From the NCBI RefSeq assembly GCF_010993745.1, contig NZ_WOTN01000001.1:127235-191234 (forward strand): DNA of 64,000 bases, written 5' to 3'. The translations under genes and the position numbers were made by a program. Shown here one piece after another: positions 3,957 through 59,840 of this stretch. A model generated the notes under the pieces. It was given only the letters and a program-made list of their open reading frames with translations. It searched no databases and was not told where the DNA came from. Source of the stretch: Fodinicola acaciae (GTDB taxonomy: Bacteria; Actinomycetota; Actinomycetes; Mycobacteriales; HKI-0501). Every line of letters starts with the position of its first letter. The stretch's first letter is position 1.

Positions 3957-4757
3957 TCAGGCTCCGTTGCGAGCGCGTTTCTCGTACGCGTCGCGTGCGG
4001 CGGTGTCCGCGGTGGCCAGCACGTCGGCGGCGCCGGTGCCGCGCCCCAGCGCCTCGGCCAGCGGCCGGGGGAGCAGCACGGCCATCCGATAGAGCAGCCG
4101 GCCGGACCGCGGGATCCACGTTTCGAAGCGCGGTTTGCGCAGGACGCCGGCGATCGCGGCGGCCACGTCGGCGGCCTCGACCGTACGAGCGCCGCGTACC
4201 GTCGACAGACCGGAGCCGAGCTCGGTGTTGACGATCATCGGCACCATAACGGACACGTCGACGCCCGTGCCGCGCAGCTCCGCGCGCGTCGCCTCGCTCA
4301 GGCCGATGATCGCGTGTTTGGTGGCGCTGTAGGTCGCCGCGCCGGCCAACGCCACACGTCCGACGCCGGACGAGACGTTGACGATGTGACCACGGCCGCG
4401 TGGCACCATCCGCGCGATCGCGAGCTTCATGCCGAGGATCACGCCGTGCAGGTTGACGTCCACGATCCGGTGCGTGAGGTCGTCGTCCTCGTCGGCGAAT
4501 GTGCCGAGTGGCATGATGCCGGCATTGTTGACGAGCGCGTCGATCGGACCGAGCTCGCGCTCGGTTTCGTCAAGGAAACGCGCGAAAGACGCGCGGTCGG
4601 TGACATCGAGGTCGGTGCCGAAACAGCCCAGCTCGTCGGCCGCGGACGCCGCCGAGTCGAGGTCACCGATCGCGACTTTGGCGCCAGTGGCCAACAAAGT
4701 GCGCGCGGTGGCCAGGCCGATGCCACGCGCGCCACCGGTGATCGCGACGACCGTCAC
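3957..4757 (-). CDS. SDR-family NAD(P)-dependent oxidoreductase
   Basis: 266 residues. Rossmann motif TGGARGIGLATA at residues 7-18, NNAG at about 85, and the Ser...YSATK catalytic signature (YxxxK) near 150-155. The long C-terminal tail and the motif NTELGSGL resemble SDRs acting on lipids or retinol-like alcohols. The GTG start at 4757 overlaps the stop of the aldehyde dehydrogenase by four bases (GTGA), which indicates translational coupling. With the upstream P450-MpaB fusion and ALDH it suggests stepwise oxidation of an alkyl or terpenoid substrate (inference). Confidence 0.88.
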   Translation of the reverse strand: MTVVAITGGARGIGLATARTLLATGAKVAIGDLDSAASAADELGCFGTDLDVTDRASFARFLDETERELGPIDALVNNAGIMPLGTFADEDDDLTHRIVDVNLHGVILGMKLAIARMVPRGRGHIVNVSSGVGRVALAGAATYSATKHAIIGLSEATRAELRGTGVDVSVMVPMIVNTELGSGLSTVRGARTVEAADVAAAIAGVLRKPRFETWIPRSGRLLYRMAVLLPRPLAEALGRGTGAADVLATADTAARDAYEKRARNGA

Positions 4758-6127
4758 ATGAACCTCCGCAGCGCGCGCAGTTTTTCCGGCGTGTATGGCG
4801 GATAGAGCAACGCCAGGTCGGGCCAGGTCGGCTTGCGCAGCACCGATTTGCGGTGACTGAACGTCTCGAAGCCCCATTTTCCGTGGTAGGAGCCCATGCC
4901 GCTGGTGCCGACCCCGCCAAAGGGCAGCTGGTTGACCAGGAAATGGAACATCAGGTGGTTGATGACCGTGGCGCCGTTGCTGACCTCGGCGAGTACGCGT
5001 CGCTGCGTCGCCTTGGACGCGCTGAACAGATAGACCGCGAGCGGTTTGGCGCGCCGGCGTACGAAGTCGATGGCACTGTCCACAGAGGACACGGTCAGAA
5101 CCGGCAGGATGGGGCCGAAAATCTCCTCGGTCATCACCGCCGAGTCGTGGTCGGGGTCGAGGATGACCGTCGGCTCGCAGGTGCGGGTCGCCAGGTCCAG
5201 CGATCCACCGGTGACCGTACGCCCGCCGGTTTCTCCCAGCAGCCGCTGCAGCCGGCTCGCCTGGCGGCCGTCGACCAGCGGGACTGCTTTGTCCACGCGG
5301 AAAGTCGCAAGCGACGCCACGATGCCGTCGATGAGCTTGTCGCGTACGGATTCCTCGACCAGCACGTAGTCCGGCGCGATGCAGGTCTGGCCGGAGTTGG
5401 CCAGCTTCGACCACGCGATCCGTTTCGCCGCGACGGAAATGTCGGCGTCGGAGGTCACGATGACCGGGCTCTTGCCGCCGAGTTCGAGCGTCACCGGAGT
5501 CAGGTGCGGCGCGGCCGCCGCCATCACCGCCTTGCCGGCTTCGGTGCCACCGGTGAAGAAAACGTGGTCGAGGCCCTGGCCGATCAGCTCCTGCGTCTCG
5601 GCGACGGCGCCTTCGACGACGATCACCGCGGCCCGGTCGAGATAGGCCGGGATCGTCTCGGCCAGCAGCGCGGACACCGCCGGTGCGTGCTCGGACGGCT
5701 TGACGATCACGCAGTTTCCGGCCGACAACGCGGCGACCAACGGCGTCAGCGTGAGTGCGATCGGATAGTTCCAGGCGCCGATGACCAGCACGGTCCCCAG
5801 CGGCTCGTGGCGGATCCACGCCTTTCCGGGTCGTACGGTCAACGGCATGCCGACGCGCTCGTCGCGCATCCATCGCCGCAGGTGCTTGCGCGCGTACGCG
5901 GCCTCGGCGATGGTCGGCGCGATGTCGAGCAGCCACCCGTCGGCCATCGGCCGGCGCAGGTCTTTTTCCAGTGCGGCAGAGAAATCCGCCTCGCGCGCGG
6001 TCAGCATGCGTTCCAGCGCGGCCAGCTGCGCGATCCGCCAGGCGGCGTCTTTCGTGCGGCCACTGCGAAAAGTGGCGCGCAGACCGTCGACGCGCGCGGC
6101 GATGGACGAGACCTGCCCGGTCAGCAT
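4754..6127 (-). CDS. Aldehyde dehydrogenase (class 3-like)
   Basis: 457 residues, the short form typical of class 3 or fatty-aldehyde ALDHs. Catalytic Cys249 lies in NSGQTCIAPDY, the general base Glu215 in LELGGKSP, and the oxyanion Asn in GAWNYPIAL. The C-terminal FLVNQLPFGGVGTSGMG is diagnostic. It oxidises aldehydes to acids with NAD(P). The ATG at 6127 has an AGGAGGT site five bases upstream and shares one base with the stop of the P450-DUF2236 gene (TGATG). The end overlaps the SDR start by four bases. The neighbours suggest it oxidises an aldehyde made by the P450 or the SDR. Confidence 0.93.
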   Translation of the reverse strand: MLTGQVSSIAARVDGLRATFRSGRTKDAAWRIAQLAALERMLTAREADFSAALEKDLRRPMADGWLLDIAPTIAEAAYARKHLRRWMRDERVGMPLTVRPGKAWIRHEPLGTVLVIGAWNYPIALTLTPLVAALSAGNCVIVKPSEHAPAVSALLAETIPAYLDRAAVIVVEGAVAETQELIGQGLDHVFFTGGTEAGKAVMAAAAPHLTPVTLELGGKSPVIVTSDADISVAAKRIAWSKLANSGQTCIAPDYVLVEESVRDKLIDGIVASLATFRVDKAVPLVDGRQASRLQRLLGETGGRTVTGGSLDLATRTCEPTVILDPDHDSAVMTEEIFGPILPVLTVSSVDSAIDFVRRRAKPLAVYLFSASKATQRRVLAEVSNGATVINHLMFHFLVNQLPFGGVGTSGMGSYHGKWGFETFSHRKSVLRKPTWPDLALLYPPYTPEKLRALRRFM

Positions 6128-8268
6128 CAGGACCTCCTGGGACGACCATCGCGCGCGAATGCGCGGCGCGCCTGCGGGAGATAGCGTACGGCCTCCGGCA
6201 GCGTCCGCCACAGCGGATCGGCGCGTCGTACGGCCGCACTGAAGCGGCGATAGCGGCGTTCCTGCCGGTCGCTCCACGGCAGCCTGAGCTGCTCGCGCGT
6301 CGACGGCGGCATGCCGCCGGTGGTGACGAACGCGGCGAGGGTGTTGGCCGGCGGACGTACCGCTCGCCACAGCCAGCCCGGCACGCGCTTGGGTGCCGGC
6401 AGTCCTTTGGTGACATAGCCGACGCCGTAACGTGCCGTCTTGTGCGGCTCGATCTGTTCACGCAGCATTCGTTGCCAGTATTCCTGGAAACCCGGCCAGT
6501 CCGCCGGCATGACCCGGTCGCTGACGCCGTACATCCGAAACCAGGTCTTGGACTCCTGATAGAGCTGTTCCTTCTCCACTGTGGACAGTGGCCGGATGAA
6601 GGTCTCCACGCCGTAGATCAGGTTGTCCAGAAAGGTGGCGTGTGCCCAGTAGTACGTTTCCGGGTCGAGCGCGTGATAACGCGTGCCGTCCGGAAACTTC
6701 CCTTTGATGTCCAGGTGAAAGTCGCGGACCTTACGCCCGGTCTCAGCGGCACGCGCACCGCCGTAGACCGTGTTCATGATCGGCCCGACCGATCTTTTCG
6801 TGCGCGCGAAGGTCTCGGCGAAGAAGACCGAGTGGTCGAGCACGCCCTGGCCGAGCGCCGGCAGCATGTTCTGCAGCACACCGGCGCGTGGACCGACCAG
6901 CAACATCCTTGTGTCGCCGAAGAACTGCCAGGTGAGCGAGCCGGGGCCGAGCGGCGCCGGCTGGCCGGTGGGGTTGGTGAAGTCAAACGGCATCCGCTTG
7001 ATGCCGTTGACGAAGTTGGACAGCAGGCGCTCCGGCTCGCCGACCGTGCGGATGTCGGGCAGCCTGGTGAAAAGCTCGCGCAGCATCACGGTGATCTCGC
7101 GCCGGGCGAGGTGCGCGCCGAGGCAGTAATGCGGGCCGGGGCCGCCGAAGCCGACGTGTTTGTTGGGGGAGCGGGTGATGTCGAAGCGGTCCGGATCCTC
7201 GAAGACGGCCTCGTCGCGGTTGGCCGAGTTGTAGAACAGCACGACCTTGTCGCCTTTGCGAAACCGGTGGCCGTTGAGCTCGCAGTCCTGCGTGACCGTG
7301 CGCCGGAACTGGATGACCGGCGTGCTGTAGCGCAGGATTTCCTCGACGGCGCCGGCGATCCGGCCGTCGAAGTCGGACAGCAGCAGGTCGCGTTGTCCTT
7401 TGTGGACGGTGAAAAGGCGCAGCGCGTGCGCGATGGCCGTACGCGTGGTCTCGTTGCCGGCCACCACGAGCAGGATGAAGAACGAGCCGAGCTCCTGCGG
7501 CGTCAGCGACTCGCCGTCGACGTTTGCGTTGACCAGCCGCGAGATCACGTCACCGGTCGGCCTGCGCCTGCGTTCCCTGCCGAGCCGCTCCACCAGCCGG
7601 AACAGGTCGCGGCCGGCGCTGATCAGCCGGAACGACGCGAGCATCATGTCGGCGTGGTTGACGCTGCCGGACAGCAGCCGGTCGCGGGACAGGCCGATGT
7701 ATTCCGGGTCGGTGTTGCCGAGGATGACGTTCGTACGCCGCAACACCATCGGCTGATAGCGCTCCGGGATGCCGAGCAGGTCGCAGATCACCTCGACCGG
7801 CAGCCGCGCCGCCACCTGGCCGACGAAATCGTACGGTCCGGTCGCGATCAGCTCGTCGACGATCCTGGTCGCGCGCCGCTGCAGCTCCGGTTCGATGCTC
7901 TCCAGCACCCGCGGCGTGAACGCCTGTGACACGACCCGCCGGATCTGCGCGTGCCGCGGGTCGTCCATGTTGATCATCGAGCCGAAGTAGGTGGCGAACC
8001 ACCGCGGCATGTCCACCATCGCGTTGGCCGTCGGCTCGTTGCTGAACAGCTTCGGATTGCGGCTCGCCTCGCTCACGTCGGCATGCGTGACCAGCGCGTA
8101 CGCGCCGTTGCCTGACGGAAACAGCGGCACCTTCGGGATGTCGAAGAACAGCGGCGCCGGCTCCGCCCGCAACCGCGCGAACGCCGCGAGCCGCTCGGCC
8201 TCCGGCCTGGCCCAGAAGGAGAGCGCCATCAGCTCTGGCCGAGCCTGCGCAACCGCGGTCACCGTCAT
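6127..8268 (-). CDS. Cytochrome P450 - DUF2236/MpaB oxygenase fusion protein
   Basis: 713 residues in two domains. Residues 1 to about 432 are a complete bacterial P450: I-helix AGNETTRT at 270-277, ExxR within EEILR at 309-313, and haem loop FGGPGPHYCLGAH at 374-386 with the thiolate Cys382. Residues about 440-713 are a DUF2236 (MpaB/Lcp-type) haem oxygenase domain with the hallmark YYWAHATFLD at 539-548 and PADWPGFQEYW further on. Both domains appear complete. The ATG at 8268 has an AGGAGG site, and the reading frame is continuous with no stop between the domains. It heads an operon with ALDH and SDR. Substrate unknown; lipid or terpenoid oxidation is inferred. Confidence 0.92.
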   Translation of the reverse strand: MTVTAVAQARPELMALSFWARPEAERLAAFARLRAEPAPLFFDIPKVPLFPSGNGAYALVTHADVSEASRNPKLFSNEPTANAMVDMPRWFATYFGSMINMDDPRHAQIRRVVSQAFTPRVLESIEPELQRRATRIVDELIATGPYDFVGQVAARLPVEVICDLLGIPERYQPMVLRRTNVILGNTDPEYIGLSRDRLLSGSVNHADMMLASFRLISAGRDLFRLVERLGRERRRRPTGDVISRLVNANVDGESLTPQELGSFFILLVVAGNETTRTAIAHALRLFTVHKGQRDLLLSDFDGRIAGAVEEILRYSTPVIQFRRTVTQDCELNGHRFRKGDKVVLFYNSANRDEAVFEDPDRFDITRSPNKHVGFGGPGPHYCLGAHLARREITVMLRELFTRLPDIRTVGEPERLLSNFVNGIKRMPFDFTNPTGQPAPLGPGSLTWQFFGDTRMLLVGPRAGVLQNMLPALGQGVLDHSVFFAETFARTKRSVGPIMNTVYGGARAAETGRKVRDFHLDIKGKFPDGTRYHALDPETYYWAHATFLDNLIYGVETFIRPLSTVEKEQLYQESKTWFRMYGVSDRVMPADWPGFQEYWQRMLREQIEPHKTARYGVGYVTKGLPAPKRVPGWLWRAVRPPANTLAAFVTTGGMPPSTREQLRLPWSDRQERRYRRFSAAVRRADPLWRTLPEAVRYLPQARRAFARDGRPRRS

Positions 8269-8296
8269 GATCGCCTCCTGCCGGACGCCCTGTAAT

Positions 8297-8314
8297 ACAA
8301 ATATCAAATTTTGT
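8297..8314. promoter_or_regulatory. AT-rich segment in the divergent promoter region of the P450 operon
   Basis: In the 106-base gap between the P450 operon and the divergent membrane gene, ACAAATATCAAATTTTGT stands out as AT-rich against about 70% GC. It has outer inverted ACAAA/TTTGT pentamers, and TATCAA recurs about 30 bases away. Either a promoter core or a regulator site is plausible; which one is not decided by the sequence. Confidence 0.3.
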
Positions 8315-9342: not shown

Positions 9343-9975
9343 GTGCCCTACCGCCGCACCCCCCGCGTCCAAGCCCGCCTGGACACCCAACGCGCCGCGA
9401 TCGTCGCCGCCGCGACGGACCTGCTTGCCGACCGCGGATACGCCGGCTGCTCGATGGCGGCGGTCGCGGCCAGGGCTGGCGTCGCGACGGGTACGGTCTA
9501 CAAGCACTTTCCCGGCAAGGCCGATCTCGCTGTCGAGCTGTTCCGCACGGTCGTCGACCGGGAAGTCGCGGCGGTTCACGATGCCATGGCCCTGCCGGGC
9601 ACGGCGACCGAGCGGGTCGTCGCGTTTCTGGAAACTTTCGCTGGCAGGGCGTTGAAATCGCCCCGGCTCGCGTACGCGCTGCTGGCGGAGCCGGTGGATC
9701 CGGCGGTGGAGGCGGAGCGGCTGGTCTTCCGGCGTACGTTCCGGGACGCGGCGGCGAAACAGATCGCGGAGGCCGTACGCGAGAACGCGCTTCCGCCACA
9801 GGATCCCGAACTCGCGGCCGCCGCGCTGATCGGCGCGGTCGGCGAGGTGCTGGTCGGGCCGCTCGCCGACGGCCAGCCGCATCCCGACGTCGTCCCGAAT
9901 CTGGTCAGTTTTGCCTTACGAGCATTAGGGACTTCGAAACAGACCCTAGGAGCATCCGATGCCGGCCACCCATGA
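9343..9975 (+). CDS. TetR/AcrR-family transcriptional regulator
   Basis: 210 residues. The N-terminal TetR HTH is clear: RAAIVAAATDLLADRGYAGCSM, then AARAGVATGTVYKHFPGKADL. The C-terminal part is the variable ligand domain. The GTG at 9343 is the start that keeps a normal pre-HTH length. Its last 17 bases overlap the acyl-CoA dehydrogenase gene, so the two are surely cotranscribed. It probably represses its own operon and senses an acyl-CoA or fatty compound, but no operator is evident upstream. Confidence 0.9.
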   Translation: MPYRRTPRVQARLDTQRAAIVAAATDLLADRGYAGCSMAAVAARAGVATGTVYKHFPGKADLAVELFRTVVDREVAAVHDAMALPGTATERVVAFLETFAGRALKSPRLAYALLAEPVDPAVEAERLVFRRTFRDAAAKQIAEAVRENALPPQDPELAAAALIGAVGEVLVGPLADGQPHPDVVPNLVSFALRALGTSKQTLGASDAGHP

Positions 9976-11587
9976 GGTCACCAACCAGGTTCCGCCGATC
10001 GACGGCTACAACGTGGCCGACGACCCGACTTTGCTCGACGGCATGCGAAAGTATGGCGCGGACTGGGCCGAGCGCGAGGTGCGCGAGCTCGGCAAGCTCG
10101 CCGGCAGCGAGAAAGCGCGTGAGTGGGGGCGGCTGGTCAACACCTATCCGCCGGCGCTGAAGACCCATGACCGCTTCGGCAACCGGATCGACGAGGTGGA
10201 GTTTCATCCGCACTGGCACGACCTGATGAAGGTCGCGGTGAAAAACGGCCTGCAGGCCTCGCCGTGGCTGATGCTCCGCGACGGCGAGCACGTGGCGCGC
10301 GCGGCCAAGTTCTACGTGTGGTCGCAGGTCGAAGCGGGTCACACCTGCCCGATTTCCATGACGTACGCGGCAATCCCGGCGCTGCGGGTCGAGCCGGAGC
10401 TGGCCAGGCAGTTCGAGGGCAAGCTCGGCGCGCGCACATACGACTACGGCCTGCGTGTGCCGACCGAAAAGAACGGCCTGATCGCCGGCATGTCGATGAC
10501 CGAGAAACAGGGCGGCTCGGACGTACGCGCCAACGCCACGGTCGCCAAACCGACCGCGAGCGGCATGTATCACCTGGTCGGGCACAAGTGGTTCACCTCG
10601 GCGCCGATGTCGGACCTGTTCCTCACGCTCGCGCAGGCTCCCGGCGGCCTGACCTGCTTCCTGCTGCCGCGGGTCCTGCCTGACGGCACGCGCAACCGGA
10701 TTTTGTTGCAGCGACTCAAAGACAAGCTTGGCAACAAGTCCAACGCGTCGGCCGAGATCGAGTACGACGGCGCGCTCGGCTGGCGGATCGGCGAGGAAGG
10801 CCGCGGCGTCCGGACGATCATCGCGATGGTCAACAACACCCGGCTGGACTGCGCGCTCGGCGGTGCGTCCGGCATGCGGCTGGCCGTCGTCAACGCCGTC
10901 CACCACTGCGCACACCGCCGAGCTTTTGGTGCCCTGCTCGTCGATCAGCCGCTGATGGCCAACGTACTGGCCGACCTGACGGTCGAGTCGGAGGCCGCGA
11001 CGATCGTCTCGATGCGGCTGGCCGGCGCCACCGACCTCGCCGCGAACGGCGATCGCAACGAAGAGACGTTCCGGCGGCTGGCCTTGGCGGTCACCAAATA
11101 CTGGGTCTGCAAGCGCGCTCCGGCGCATGCCGCCGAGGCGCTGGAATGCCTCGGCGGCAACGGATACGTCGAGGAGTCCGGCATGCCGCGGCTCTATCGC
11201 GAGGCGCCGCTGTCCTCGATCTGGGAAGGCTCCGGCAACGTGGCCGCGCTGGACGCGTTGCGGGCCATGGCCAAGCAGCCGGAGTCGGTGGAGGCGTTCT
11301 TCGCCGAGGTCGAGCTGGCCACCGGCGCCGACGTGCGGCTCGACACCGCGGTCGCGCACCTGCGCAAGGAACTGTCCGACCTGGCCGACCTCGAATACCG
11401 GGCGCGACGGATCGTCGAGCGGATGGCGCTGGTGCTGCAGGGGTCGCTGCTGGTGCGCGACGGCCACCCGGCGGTCGCGTCGGCGTTCTGCGCGTCGAGG
11501 CTGGCAGAGGACTGGGGTGTCGCCTTCGGTACGCTGCCGGCAGGCCTGGACACCAGCGCGATAATCGACCGCGCGCGTACGTCGTAG
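9959..11587 (+). CDS. aidB: AidB-like acyl-CoA dehydrogenase
   Basis: 542 residues, essentially the length of E. coli AidB and longer than ordinary acyl-CoA dehydrogenases. AidB-type features are SMTEKQGGSDVRAN in the FAD-binding middle domain, HKWFTSAPMSDLF, and the C-terminal ECLGGNGYVEESGMPRLYRE followed by SSIWEGSGN. AidB proteins are FAD-binding and linked to alkylation response or to isovaleryl-CoA-like oxidation. An AGGAG site lies seven bases before the ATG. The gene overlaps the TetR gene that presumably controls it. Catalytic activity cannot be judged from sequence alone. Confidence 0.88.
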   Translation: MPATHEVTNQVPPIDGYNVADDPTLLDGMRKYGADWAEREVRELGKLAGSEKAREWGRLVNTYPPALKTHDRFGNRIDEVEFHPHWHDLMKVAVKNGLQASPWLMLRDGEHVARAAKFYVWSQVEAGHTCPISMTYAAIPALRVEPELARQFEGKLGARTYDYGLRVPTEKNGLIAGMSMTEKQGGSDVRANATVAKPTASGMYHLVGHKWFTSAPMSDLFLTLAQAPGGLTCFLLPRVLPDGTRNRILLQRLKDKLGNKSNASAEIEYDGALGWRIGEEGRGVRTIIAMVNNTRLDCALGGASGMRLAVVNAVHHCAHRRAFGALLVDQPLMANVLADLTVESEAATIVSMRLAGATDLAANGDRNEETFRRLALAVTKYWVCKRAPAHAAEALECLGGNGYVEESGMPRLYREAPLSSIWEGSGNVAALDALRAMAKQPESVEAFFAEVELATGADVRLDTAVAHLRKELSDLADLEYRARRIVERMALVLQGSLLVRDGHPAVASAFCASRLAEDWGVAFGTLPAGLDTSAIIDRARTS

Positions 11588-11692: not shown

Positions 11693-12274
11693 ATGGTCCG
11701 AAGACTCGCAGCGCTCGCCGTCGCGACCGTCGCGATGGCCGGCCTGCTCAGCGCGCTGCCGGCCAGCCCGGCATCGGCCGACGTACGCAGCGCGATCGCC
11801 GACGCCGCGATCAGCCAGATCGGCAAGGCCGAGACCGGCACGAACTACTACCCGATCGCGTACAAGATCAACGACTCGATCGTCCGGCCGGCCGCCTGGT
11901 GCGGCATCTTCGCCAACTGGGCCTGGTGGAAGGGCGGCGCGACGGCGCGGCCGAACATGACCGGCTCCGGCACCGCGCAGGGTCACTGGGCCACCTACTG
12001 GCAGAAGTGGGCCAAGGACCACAGCCGCTGGAAGCCGATCGCCAACAAGAACCCGGCGCCCGGTGACGTGGTCGTCTACGGCAACTACCCGGACAGCCGG
12101 CACGTCGGCGTCGTCGTGCAGGTGCGCAAGGGCAGCGACGGCAAGGTCACCCAGATCCGCAGCGTGGAAGGCAACTTCGGGGACAAGGTCACTGACCGCG
12201 GCTGGCGCAACATCGGCAGCCTGACCGGCGGCGGCGCCTCGGCGACCGGTTTCGCGTCGCCGGTGGCTCTCTAG
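11693..12274 (+). CDS. Secreted CHAP-domain protein 1
   Basis: 193 residues. Signal peptide in residues 1-29 (MVRRLAALAVATVAMAGLL, cleavage near ASA). The mature part is a CHAP cysteine amidase or peptidase fold: nucleophile Cys in PAAWCGIFANWAWW and His in SRHVGVVVQV, followed by an Asn-containing VEGNFGDKV. Family role: peptidoglycan cross-bridge or amide cleavage outside the cell. RBS GAGGAG lies five bases before the ATG. The next gene is a close paralogue in tandem. The catalytic pair is intact. Confidence 0.88.
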   Translation: MVRRLAALAVATVAMAGLLSALPASPASADVRSAIADAAISQIGKAETGTNYYPIAYKINDSIVRPAAWCGIFANWAWWKGGATARPNMTGSGTAQGHWATYWQKWAKDHSRWKPIANKNPAPGDVVVYGNYPDSRHVGVVVQVRKGSDGKVTQIRSVEGNFGDKVTDRGWRNIGSLTGGGASATGFASPVAL

Positions 12275-12342: not shown

Positions 12343-12939
12343 ATGGTGAGACGGTTGACGGCGGCGCTGGTCGTGGCGCTCGCGTTCGCGCTGGCCGGGT
12401 CGGTCAGCCTGGTGCCGGTGACGGCGGCGTACGCGGATCCGCCGAGCGCGCACATCCGTGACTCGATCGCGAAGGCGGCGATCAGCCAGATCGGCAAGAA
12501 GGAGACCGGCAACAACTACTACCCGAAGGCGTACAAGATCAGCAGCGCCATCCTGCGGCCGGCCGCCTGGTGCGGCATCTTCGCCAACTGGGCCTGGTGG
12601 AAGGGCGGCGCGACCAAGCGGCCGAACATGACCGGCAGCGGCACCAACCAGGGGCACTGGGCCACCTACTGGCAGAAGTGGGGCAAGGCGCAGCACCGCT
12701 GGAAGCCGATCAGCAAGAAGAGCACCGCGCCCGGTGACGTGGTGGTCTACGGCAACTATCCGGACAGCCGGCATGTCGGGGTCGTGGTGGGCGTGAAGTA
12801 CGACAGCCACGGCAACGTCTCGCAGGTGCGTACGGTCGAAGGCAATTTCGGGGACAAGGTGACCGACCGTGGTTGGCGCAAGATCGGGTCGATGTCCGGT
12901 GGTGGCGCGAAGGCGACCGGCTTCGTCTCGCCAGTCTGA
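12343..12939 (+). CDS. Secreted CHAP-domain protein 2 (tandem paralogue)
   Basis: 198 residues, clearly duplicated from the preceding gene: the mature parts share long identical runs such as PAAWCGIFANWAWWKGGAT, GHWATYWQKW, APGDVVVYGNYPDSRHVGVV and VEGNFGDKVTDRGWR. The signal peptide differs (MVRRLTAALVVALAFALAG, then a longer linker ending AYADPPSAH). Catalytic Cys and His are retained. AAAGGAG RBS five bases before the ATG. Likely an extracellular peptidoglycan or peptide hydrolase; the divergence in the exported leader and the surface Lys residues suggests specialisation. Confidence 0.88.
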   Translation: MVRRLTAALVVALAFALAGSVSLVPVTAAYADPPSAHIRDSIAKAAISQIGKKETGNNYYPKAYKISSAILRPAAWCGIFANWAWWKGGATKRPNMTGSGTNQGHWATYWQKWGKAQHRWKPISKKSTAPGDVVVYGNYPDSRHVGVVVGVKYDSHGNVSQVRTVEGNFGDKVTDRGWRKIGSMSGGGAKATGFVSPV

Positions 12940-57927: not shown

Positions 57928-58335
57928 GTGCCCGCACCGTTGGACTTCCGGATGCAGATCCTCGTCCTGCCAGGCGCCACCGAGGTGCACGCGATCGTCT
58001 CGGTCACGGCGACCGGAGACGCGCCGGCCGAGCCGGAGACCGCGTTATGGATCGAGCCGGAGCCGGGCGCGTCGGTGCGGTTCCTCCGGCAGACCAGGCC
58101 GAGCCGCGCCGAGATCCGTCCCATCGACGGCGCCTACCGCACCGGCAGCTGGGCGGCCGAGGAGCGCGAATTCCACCTGTGCCTGGACATGCCGGCGCTG
58201 GCCGACGGCCGCAAGCGGATGGTAGCGGTGGTTTTCCTGCTGCGGCCCGAAGACCACGTCCTCGCTGAGGGGACGGTGCTCGCCGGCCGTGACGACGGTT
58301 TCGTCGCGCCGCCCCCGCCGTTGCCGCGCGGTTAG
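57928..58335 (+). CDS. Stand-alone beta-sandwich protein, vWA-associated type
   Basis: 135 residues. MQILVLPGATEVHAIVSVTATGDAP, GASVRFLRQTRPSRAEIRPIDGAYRTGSWAAEEREFHLCLDMP and MVAVVFLLRPEDHVLAEGTVLAGRDDG. The pattern is like the beta-sandwich that follows vWA domains in actinobacterial conflict proteins and like residues 25-130 of the CHAT protein. No catalytic residues are evident. It starts 38 bases after the CHAT gene and overlaps the convergent DUF2236 gene by four bases. Family assignment is from pattern only. Confidence 0.62.
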   Translation: MPAPLDFRMQILVLPGATEVHAIVSVTATGDAPAEPETALWIEPEPGASVRFLRQTRPSRAEIRPIDGAYRTGSWAAEEREFHLCLDMPALADGRKRMVAVVFLLRPEDHVLAEGTVLAGRDDGFVAPPPPLPRG

Positions 58336-59159
58336 ACCAGCGGTTTGCCGGCCCTGATCCGCCGGCGTACGTCCCACATGTAAGCGTTCATCGGGAAAAT
58401 CCGCACCGGACGCGGCATCAGGCGGACGGCGGCGGCCATCGCGGCCAGCGTACGGTCGAAAAGCCGCTGGTCGCGGTCGGTCCACGGCAGCCGCATCTGG
58501 TCGCGAAACTCCGGCGGCAGGAAGCCGGTGGTGAAAAACCTGTTCATCGGCGCCAAAGGAGCGCCGACGATCCACGGCAGAAACCGCAGCGAGGCGAGAT
58601 CCCGCAAATAGCCGCGTACGGTGTCGTCGATCGAGATCCGCGCGACGCCGTCCCGCCAGTACGCCTCGAAAGCCGCGCGGTCGGCCGGCCACCGGTCTTC
58701 TGGCACCTGCAGCGTCGTGCCGAGCACCGCCGCCTCGCGATAGAGATGGTCCCACTCGGCGTCGGTCAGCGGCCGCGAGCCAAAATAACGGTACGAATCC
58801 TCGAAACCCTTCCACAGGCAGGCGGCGACCCACAGCTGCAGCTCCGGGTCGAAAGCGTTGTATTTCACCGGACTCGACGGGCTCGAGCGCACCTGCGCGT
58901 GCGACTTGTTGACCGCGAGCCGATAGGCGCGGCGCTCGGCCGGCGTGCCGAGCATCGCGACGGCCAGATAGCTCAGCGTCGTACGCGTCCGCTTGACCGG
59001 ATGCCGGAACAGGCTGCCGCTGTCCACCTTGCTCTCGTAGACGCCATAGCCGACCCCCGGCCACGACAGCTGCATGATCACGTTGGCGCCGCCGCCGATC
59101 ACCGCGAGCCCGATGACCAGGTCGTCCAGCCGTACGTCCGGCCTCACCGCGGTCGTCAT
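58332..59159 (-). CDS. DUF2236 (MpaB-type) oxygenase-like protein
   Basis: 275 residues. LDDLVIGLAVIGGGANVIMQLSWPGVGYGVYESKV, RTTLSYLAVAMLGTPAERRAYR, YNAFDPELQLWVAACLWKGFEDSYRYFG and PEFRDQMRLPWTDRDQRLFDR are the family landmarks. At the position of the His in the WxHAT motif of the P450 fusion this protein has WVAAC (109-114), so the His is absent. Haem binding may thus differ. GGGGAGG lies four bases before the ATG. Divergent from TetR. Confidence 0.85.
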   Translation of the reverse strand: MTTAVRPDVRLDDLVIGLAVIGGGANVIMQLSWPGVGYGVYESKVDSGSLFRHPVKRTRTTLSYLAVAMLGTPAERRAYRLAVNKSHAQVRSSPSSPVKYNAFDPELQLWVAACLWKGFEDSYRYFGSRPLTDAEWDHLYREAAVLGTTLQVPEDRWPADRAAFEAYWRDGVARISIDDTVRGYLRDLASLRFLPWIVGAPLAPMNRFFTTGFLPPEFRDQMRLPWTDRDQRLFDRTLAAMAAAVRLMPRPVRIFPMNAYMWDVRRRIRAGKPLV

Positions 59160-59234
59160 CGGGCCTCCCCAAATCTGCACACAGGCGTATTCAGATATCC
59201 AACGCGTGCGTCGAAGGTCTGTCAAGATGGACGG

Positions 59235-59840
59235 ATGCGGGTGTACGGAGGAGTCCAGGGTGACCTGCGCCGCGACGAGCGGCGGACGCAGCTGCTGGAG
59301 GCCGGCCTCGAGCTGCTCGGCGCGGCGGAGGAGACGGCGCTGACCGTACGCGGCGTCTGCCAGCGGGCCGGCCTGGCGACGCGCTACTTCTACGAAAGCT
59401 TCGCCGACCGTGACGCGCTCGCCGAGGCCGTGTTCGACAAGGTCATCACCGATATCGCGCAGACCGCGCTGCATGCCGTCACCGAGGCGCCGCCGGAGGC
59501 GGAAGCCAAGGTCAGAGCCGGTCTGTCGGCGATCGTACGCACCGTCGCCGACGATCCACGCCGCGGCCGGCTGCTGTTCGCCACCTCATTGTCGAGCCTG
59601 CTCGCGCAGCGGCGGCTGCGGTCGGCGCAGCTGTTCGCGTCGCTGCTGACCGCCGAGGCGCGCGAGTTTTACCAGCTGGAGGCCGACAACCGGCTCGCCG
59701 TGGTCGCGCAGTTCATGGTCGGCGGCCTGGCGCAGACGCTGACCGCCTGGCTGGCCGGCGATCTGGCCGTCGACCAGCAGGAGATCGTCGACCACTGCAC
59801 GACTGTCTTCCTCGCCGTCGCGGCACGACAGATAACCTGA
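59235..59840 (+). CDS. TetR-family regulator
   Basis: 201 residues. [55 protein letters not shown]. TetR-like C-terminal domain with [35 protein letters not shown] at 59235. It is divergent from the DUF2236 gene and likely its repressor; the aroQ gene starts five bases after its stop on the same strand. Confidence 0.9.

Follow-up and report, generated by a model that had tools for sequence, protein, structure and literature searches.

What happens when two complete oxygenases are encoded as one polypeptide, and is such a chain real in the first place? The question is raised by a gene in a 64,000-nucleotide stretch of the Fodinicola acaciae genome (8.86 Mb, 4 contigs), which covers positions 127,235 to 191,234 of contig NZ_WOTN01000001.1 and is called here the window; coordinates below count from its first letter. 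The first-pass annotation, made from the letters alone, had described two complete haem-oxygenase-type domains in one protein of 713 amino acids (aa), a cytochrome P450 followed by a DUF2236/MpaB oxygenase. An open reading frame (ORF) of exactly this content was found at 6127-8268, with both Pfam domains and their motifs intact; its strand, misread at first, is minus. A second copy of the fusion occurs in Fodinicola feengrottensis; both species are soil actinobacteria. The elements of the gene are as follows.

6127..8268, minus strand: fusion gene of 713 aa, CYP124-type P450 plus MpaB/Lcp-type (DUF2236) domain (ORF, Pfam, orthologous fusion in F. feengrottensis)
6973..8244, minus strand: P450 domain, residues 9-432 (phmmer match to CYP124A1; its end matches the C-termini of stand-alone relatives)
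7123..7125, minus strand: Cys382, P450 haem-thiolate ligand within FGGPGPHYCLG (motif position)
6949..6972, minus strand: linker of ~8 residues, about residues 433-440, PTGQPAPL (open junction in both species)
6130..6948, minus strand: DUF2236/MPAB_Lcp_cat domain, residues 441-713 (PF09995, structure model, fold matches)
6790..6804, minus strand: R489-T-K-R492-S493, counterpart of Lcp R164-x-x-K167-T168 on the distal haem side (motif spacing)
6715..6717, minus strand: His518 in R515-D-F-H518, predicted proximal haem ligand and counterpart of Lcp H198 (invariant in 49 homologues)

The ORF runs uninterrupted for 713 codons to its stop and starts with an ATG at 8268 that has AGGAGG just upstream. 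A Pfam search of its product returned p450 (E = 8.6e-24) and MPAB_Lcp_cat (PF09995, E = 1.4e-68), and nothing else. The second match extends over residues 447-682 and covers the whole profile (positions 1-231 of 231) with 231.8 bits, the curated cut-off being 23. The P450 half carries AGNETTR (270-276), ExxR (310-313) and the Cys382 loop; the DUF2236 half carries the RTKRS segment, VRDFH518 and WAHAT (541-545). The single-chain fusion is almost certainly genuine. Its novelty lies in the pairing of two known enzyme families, not in a new kind of enzyme. As to its role, we give about an even chance to a two-haem enzyme that may hydroxylate and oxidatively cleave a methyl-branched or isoprenoid-like lipid, the products being finished by the short-chain dehydrogenase/reductase (SDR) and the aldehyde dehydrogenase (ALDH) encoded downstream.

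A sequencing or assembly artefact that joined two genes near residue 432 would be the simplest objection to the fusion. The first-pass annotation had asked for a search for a hidden stop at this place and for conservation of the linker, and on both counts the gene holds: codons 415-455 contain no stop, either here or in F. feengrottensis HKI 0501, which was sequenced independently and in which junction and linker are conserved and in frame. At the junction neither Fodinicola species has a Shine-Dalgarno site from which a second start could be used. Errors or decay do occur at the locus, as the F. feengrottensis gene has a 1-nt frameshift within its P450 near residue 371 (L065:7962-7974), upstream of the haem-Cys loop and away from the junction; this may itself be a sequencing error, because that genome is rated 74% complete. 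As two species sequenced independently have the junction in frame, with no ribosome-binding site or separate start there, an artefact is extremely improbable, and an assembly error at the junction was rejected on the strength of the open codons and the second species.

The two loci share the order P450-DUF2236-ALDH-SDR, with identities of 84-86% (P450), 80% (DUF2236), 75% (ALDH) and 70-77% (SDR). Collinearity extends over the operon and its promoter (4.4 kb, 78% nucleotide identity) and otherwise amounts to one 44-base match. Between the two species the ratio of non-synonymous to synonymous substitution rates (dN/dS) is 0.20 in the DUF2236 half; in the P450 it is 0.18 over residues 1-368 and 0.06 over the tail. 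Purifying selection acts on both halves. These values bear on the view that one half is inactive and now serves as a scaffold or sensor. The F. feengrottensis frameshift, if real, would inactivate the P450 there, but the haem-binding motifs are all intact in the window protein and dN/dS is ~0.2 for both halves, which makes loss of either activity very unlikely.

Other proteins with the two domains in this order had been proposed as a check; one was found, yet in the genus Fodinicola alone. Three partly overlapping samples, about 1,000 actinobacterial genomes in all, were scored for the best few candidates per genome, one from the order (397 genomes; query, P450 tail plus DUF2236) and two, from the class (394) and the phylum (296), with the whole fusion as query; none gave a match spanning both domains outside Fodinicola. 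A DUF2236 alignment scan over 84,980 species genomes confirmed at least 588 relatives, and among the best 80 loci, which were kept, only F. feengrottensis is fused. Three candidates were rejected on inspection: the match reaching residue 536 in genome G501 is an ordinary P450 without an adjoining DUF2236, and those starting near the P450 tail at loci L127 and L134 are stand-alone DUF2236 genes. A plasmid collection held no record covering 80% of the query, viral contigs yielded no relative of the P450, and the open-licence literature searched contained no report of a P450-DUF2236/MpaB fusion. Among the genomes sampled the fusion has so far been seen in Fodinicola only. The plasmid collection includes Nonomuraea gerenzanensis NZ_LT559118.1 (11.85 Mb) as 'plasmid I', which judged by its size is probably the chromosome.

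What are the two halves? The P450 half is 48.5% identical (195/402 positions; phmmer 1e-106) to CYP124A1 (Rv2266) of Mycobacterium tuberculosis. P450 families are usually delimited at more than 40% identity, so that the half passes the threshold for CYP124, and Cys loop, ExxR and the I-helix AGxET are all present. CYP124A1 is an omega-hydroxylase that prefers methyl-branched lipids (PMC6469627).

The DUF2236 half was modelled with a predicted local distance difference test score (pLDDT) of 85. Sequence searches of the PDB with this half found no relative, and the relationship was shown by fold search alone: the best match is t-anethole oxygenase (Z 16.0, root-mean-square deviation (rmsd) 3.4, 240 residues aligned), followed by Lcp (Z 14.0, rmsd 4.2, 241 aligned) and globins (Z ~7), while Foldseek gave a weak E-value of 0.2. 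In LcpK30, R164 and H198 are indispensable and T168 almost as much; the haem is bound by H198 on its proximal and by K167 on its distal side, and R195 matters for the structure (PMC6311187). Across 49 homologues R489, R492, R515 and H518 do not vary and S493 hardly does; of the Lcp R/T/H set, the Arg and the proximal His have their equivalents in R489 and H518, matched by spacing and fold. The WxHAT motif singled out in the first-pass annotation is indeed conserved; the likely haem-ligand His, however, is H518 of VRDFH and not that of WxHAT.

Enzymes of the MpaB family and Lcp hold a b-haem and cleave C=C bonds (PMC12724181, PMC6311187), which bears on an alternative in which the DUF2236 half, as a haem oxygenase, catalyses some other reaction such as hydroxylation, peroxygenation or epoxidation. 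The DUF2236 family is large and mostly uncharacterised, and the positions of Lcp K167 and T168 are Arg and Ser in the fusion; both leave room for such chemistry. The Thr is found at the T168 position in 99.6% of Lcp homologues (PMC6311187). Gordonia Nro1, however, has Arg at that position, shows b-haem bands and releases aldehydes/ketones from nitrile rubber (PMC12724181); Nro1, like MpaB, cleaves C=C, and does so without the Thr. Moreover, t-anethole oxygenase and Lcp, the close folds for which a reaction is known, both take their names from alkene substrates. A different reaction is on this balance unlikely, and C=C cleavage is kept below as the proposed role of this half.

Downstream of the fusion, the coupled ALDH and SDR genes noted in the first-pass annotation were recovered with their overlaps.

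4754..6127, minus strand: class-3 aldehyde dehydrogenase, start overlapping the fusion stop in TGATG (domain match, overlap, homologues)
3957..4757, minus strand: SDR of the PRK07825 subfamily, start GTG overlapping the ALDH stop in GTGA (domain match, overlap, NCBIfam)

Through these overlaps the three genes are translationally coupled. The ALDH is of class 3, with matches to ALDH3A1 (6e-122) and fatty aldehyde dehydrogenase (6e-114), and the SDRs of Fodinicola and Actinomadura fall into the same NCBIfam subfamily, PRK07825.

Both domains occur separately in other actinobacteria, as had been stated at first reading, and their stand-alone homologues indicate where the halves come from. Among the best 80 loci the nearest stand-alone DUF2236 proteins belong to Thermomonosporaceae (Actinomadura, Spirillospora; mostly 70-77% identity) and the next to Mycobacteriaceae (57-64%). 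In a 53-row tree both Fodinicola DUF2236 domains lie nearest to Actinomadura rows, the exact branching being weakly supported. The nearest stand-alone P450s (62-69% identity) are also found in Thermomonosporaceae genomes, and an unfused P450 at least 60% identical is present in 14 of the 15 genomes with a close DUF2236 gene. The join is nearly seamless: a stand-alone P450 ends in GIKRMPFTFTPPAEGR, a stand-alone DUF2236 starts with MTDQAETQSPAPLGPGSLTW and the fusion reads GIKRMPFDFTNPTGQPAPLGPGSLTW. A second, distantly related DUF2236 gene lies in the window at 58332-59840 on the minus strand (PF09995, 2.6e-68; 28% identity to the Spirillospora DUF2236), and a TetR-like ORF on the plus strand, overlapping or divergent to it, makes another DUF2236-TetR pair.

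The DNA before the fusion adds to this history.

8296..8314, minus strand: ACAAAATTTGATATTTGTA, control element of DUF2236 type ahead of the P450 start (pattern drawn up post hoc)

An ACAA-N11-TGTA element stands directly before the P450 in both fusions, 46 and 40 nt from the start. Of 79 stand-alone DUF2236 genes, 55 have ACAA-N10-12-TGTA in the 190 nt upstream, where Markov shuffles give an expectation of 0.16, and none of the 19 stand-alone P450 genes has it upstream; the pattern was defined after viewing the same sequences, and the two Fodinicola sites do not count as independent. DUF2236 is adjoined by a TetR gene from a single family in 14 of 15 Thermomonosporaceae loci and at the majority of those in Mycobacteriaceae, and in F. 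feengrottensis a TetR of this DUF2236-associated family (43% identity) is divergent from the fusion. The family was not found in the 64-kb window; a TetR gene at 9343-9975, which overlaps that of an AidB-like acyl-CoA dehydrogenase (9959-11587), is outside it. In Mycobacteriaceae (L081-L144, e.g., L081, L083, L144) TTGGTACAAAGTnCnnAATcTGTAACACTGT is strongly conserved upstream of DUF2236, beside the TetR gene, and this region is a candidate TetR operator. Because the fusions share their element with DUF2236 genes and not with stand-alone P450s, the simplest history has a P450 frame inserted after a DUF2236 promoter; the insertion probably separated the promoter/operator of a TetR-associated DUF2236 gene from its coding region. 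Elsewhere in the window, the adjacent ORFs at 11693-12274 and 12343-12939 are similar and secreted-looking (NYYP.AYKI...AWCGIFANWAWWKGGA...), a tandem duplication.

Do the two halves work on one substrate? The neighbourhood of the Thermomonosporaceae DUF2236 gene is conserved and comprises an esterase, TetR, DUF2236, an SDR (13/15 loci) and a P450 from a different family (14/15), with a hydrolase/AMP-binding protein beyond the P450. At loci L066-L078 and L080 the cluster includes a protein of ~900-980 aa that has AMP-binding and alpha/beta-hydrolase matches. This second, unfused linkage of DUF2236, SDR and P450 makes the case for a pathway link stronger. Genes for acyl-CoA ligase, GMC oxidoreductase and alpha/beta-hydrolase neighbour the stand-alone P450 relatives, a context that would fit a chain-oxidation pathway. 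A P450 some kb away from DUF2236 in mycobacteria was seen at a minority of loci and is not counted as conserved. It is conceivable that the fusion merely provides co-expression or a fixed stoichiometry, each half acting on different molecules or steps with no hand-over. The purifying selection on both halves would fit this, as would the Thermomonosporaceae genomes that contain close homologues of both halves unlinked and unfused. The adjoining of P450, SDR and DUF2236 genes without fusion favours one pathway instead, and the short linker also speaks against a role in stoichiometry alone, which we regard as a real but doubtful alternative.

A two-haem lipid oxidase remains our preferred reading. 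Each half would bind its own haem, through the Cys382 thiolate and the His518 imidazole, respectively. The P450, served by a separate ferredoxin and reductase, would hydroxylate a lipid of methyl-branched or isoprenoid-like type; the DUF2236 half would use O2 to cleave a C=C bond, in the same intermediate or a successive one, to carbonyl products; and SDR and class-3 ALDH would convert alcohol and aldehyde to the acid. The characterised relatives use methyl-branched or isoprenoid chains (CYP124, branched lipids; MpaB, a farnesyl chain; Lcp, polyisoprene), and the most economical proposal has one unsaturated isoprenoid-like lipid both hydroxylated and cleaved at a C=C bond. That the fusion is natural while its halves are separate in all other sampled genomes hints at sequential work on one oily substrate. 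In a narrower version, which we put forward tentatively, the single bacterial chain carries out hydroxylation and ozonolysis-like C=C cleavage, in either order, on the same isoprenoid-type lipid and passes the intermediate from one haem to the other; the literature searched records no such enzyme.

Several observations weigh against the preferred reading. A close DUF2236 gene is present in only 2 of 24 genomes picked class-wide for the P450, which thus needs no DUF2236. The operon has no ferredoxin or reductase gene, and the P450 of the F. feengrottensis copy is frameshifted. The Lcp residues were matched by fold and by the spacing of motifs rather than by residue-level superposition, and Ser493 occupies the T168 position, where Lcp proper has Thr. 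The full-length fusion model (pLDDT 50) is too poor to place two haems.

The fusion ties a little-studied bacterial family of alkene-cleaving oxygenases to P450, SDR and ALDH functions. Members of this DUF2236 subfamily are common in Mycobacteriaceae and Actinomadura, no known function was found for them, and the fusion now suggests a pathway that can be tested. If both haems do share one substrate, the protein would offer hydroxylation together with alkene cleavage in a ready-made biocatalyst.

Among known systems, CYP124A1 resembles the P450 half in identity and in all motifs but stands alone, with no DUF2236 domain. Self-sufficient P450s of the BM3 type have a fused reductase or ferredoxin domain, whereas the fusion has neither according to Pfam. 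The oomycete fusion family CYP5619, reported as a P450 joined to a peroxidase/dioxygenase (PMC5919972), follows the same concept of a P450 with a second oxidative enzyme, the partner domain and the lineage being unrelated. The t-anethole oxygenase of Stenotrophomonas maltophilia (PDB 8S1J) shares the fold of the DUF2236 half at 8% sequence identity and is a stand-alone enzyme. LcpK30 (PDB 5O1L/5O1M) has the same Pfam family and fold, and its R164 and H198 have counterparts in the fusion; it is an extracellular, single-domain enzyme acting on polyisoprene, and its K167/T168 positions are Arg/Ser in the fusion. Unlike Lcp, the fusion has a P450 at its N-terminus, and no leader for secretion was seen in its translation (no signal predictor was run). 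MpaB of the mycophenolic acid pathway and the nitrile rubber oxygenase Nro1 share the Pfam family and cleave C=C, but are membrane-bound with no P450 fused. The DUF2236-SDR-P450 cluster of Actinomadura has a DUF2236 73-77% identical, an SDR of the same subfamily and a P450 nearby; it differs from the fusion in that the genes are separate and that its P450 belongs to another family (~25% identical).

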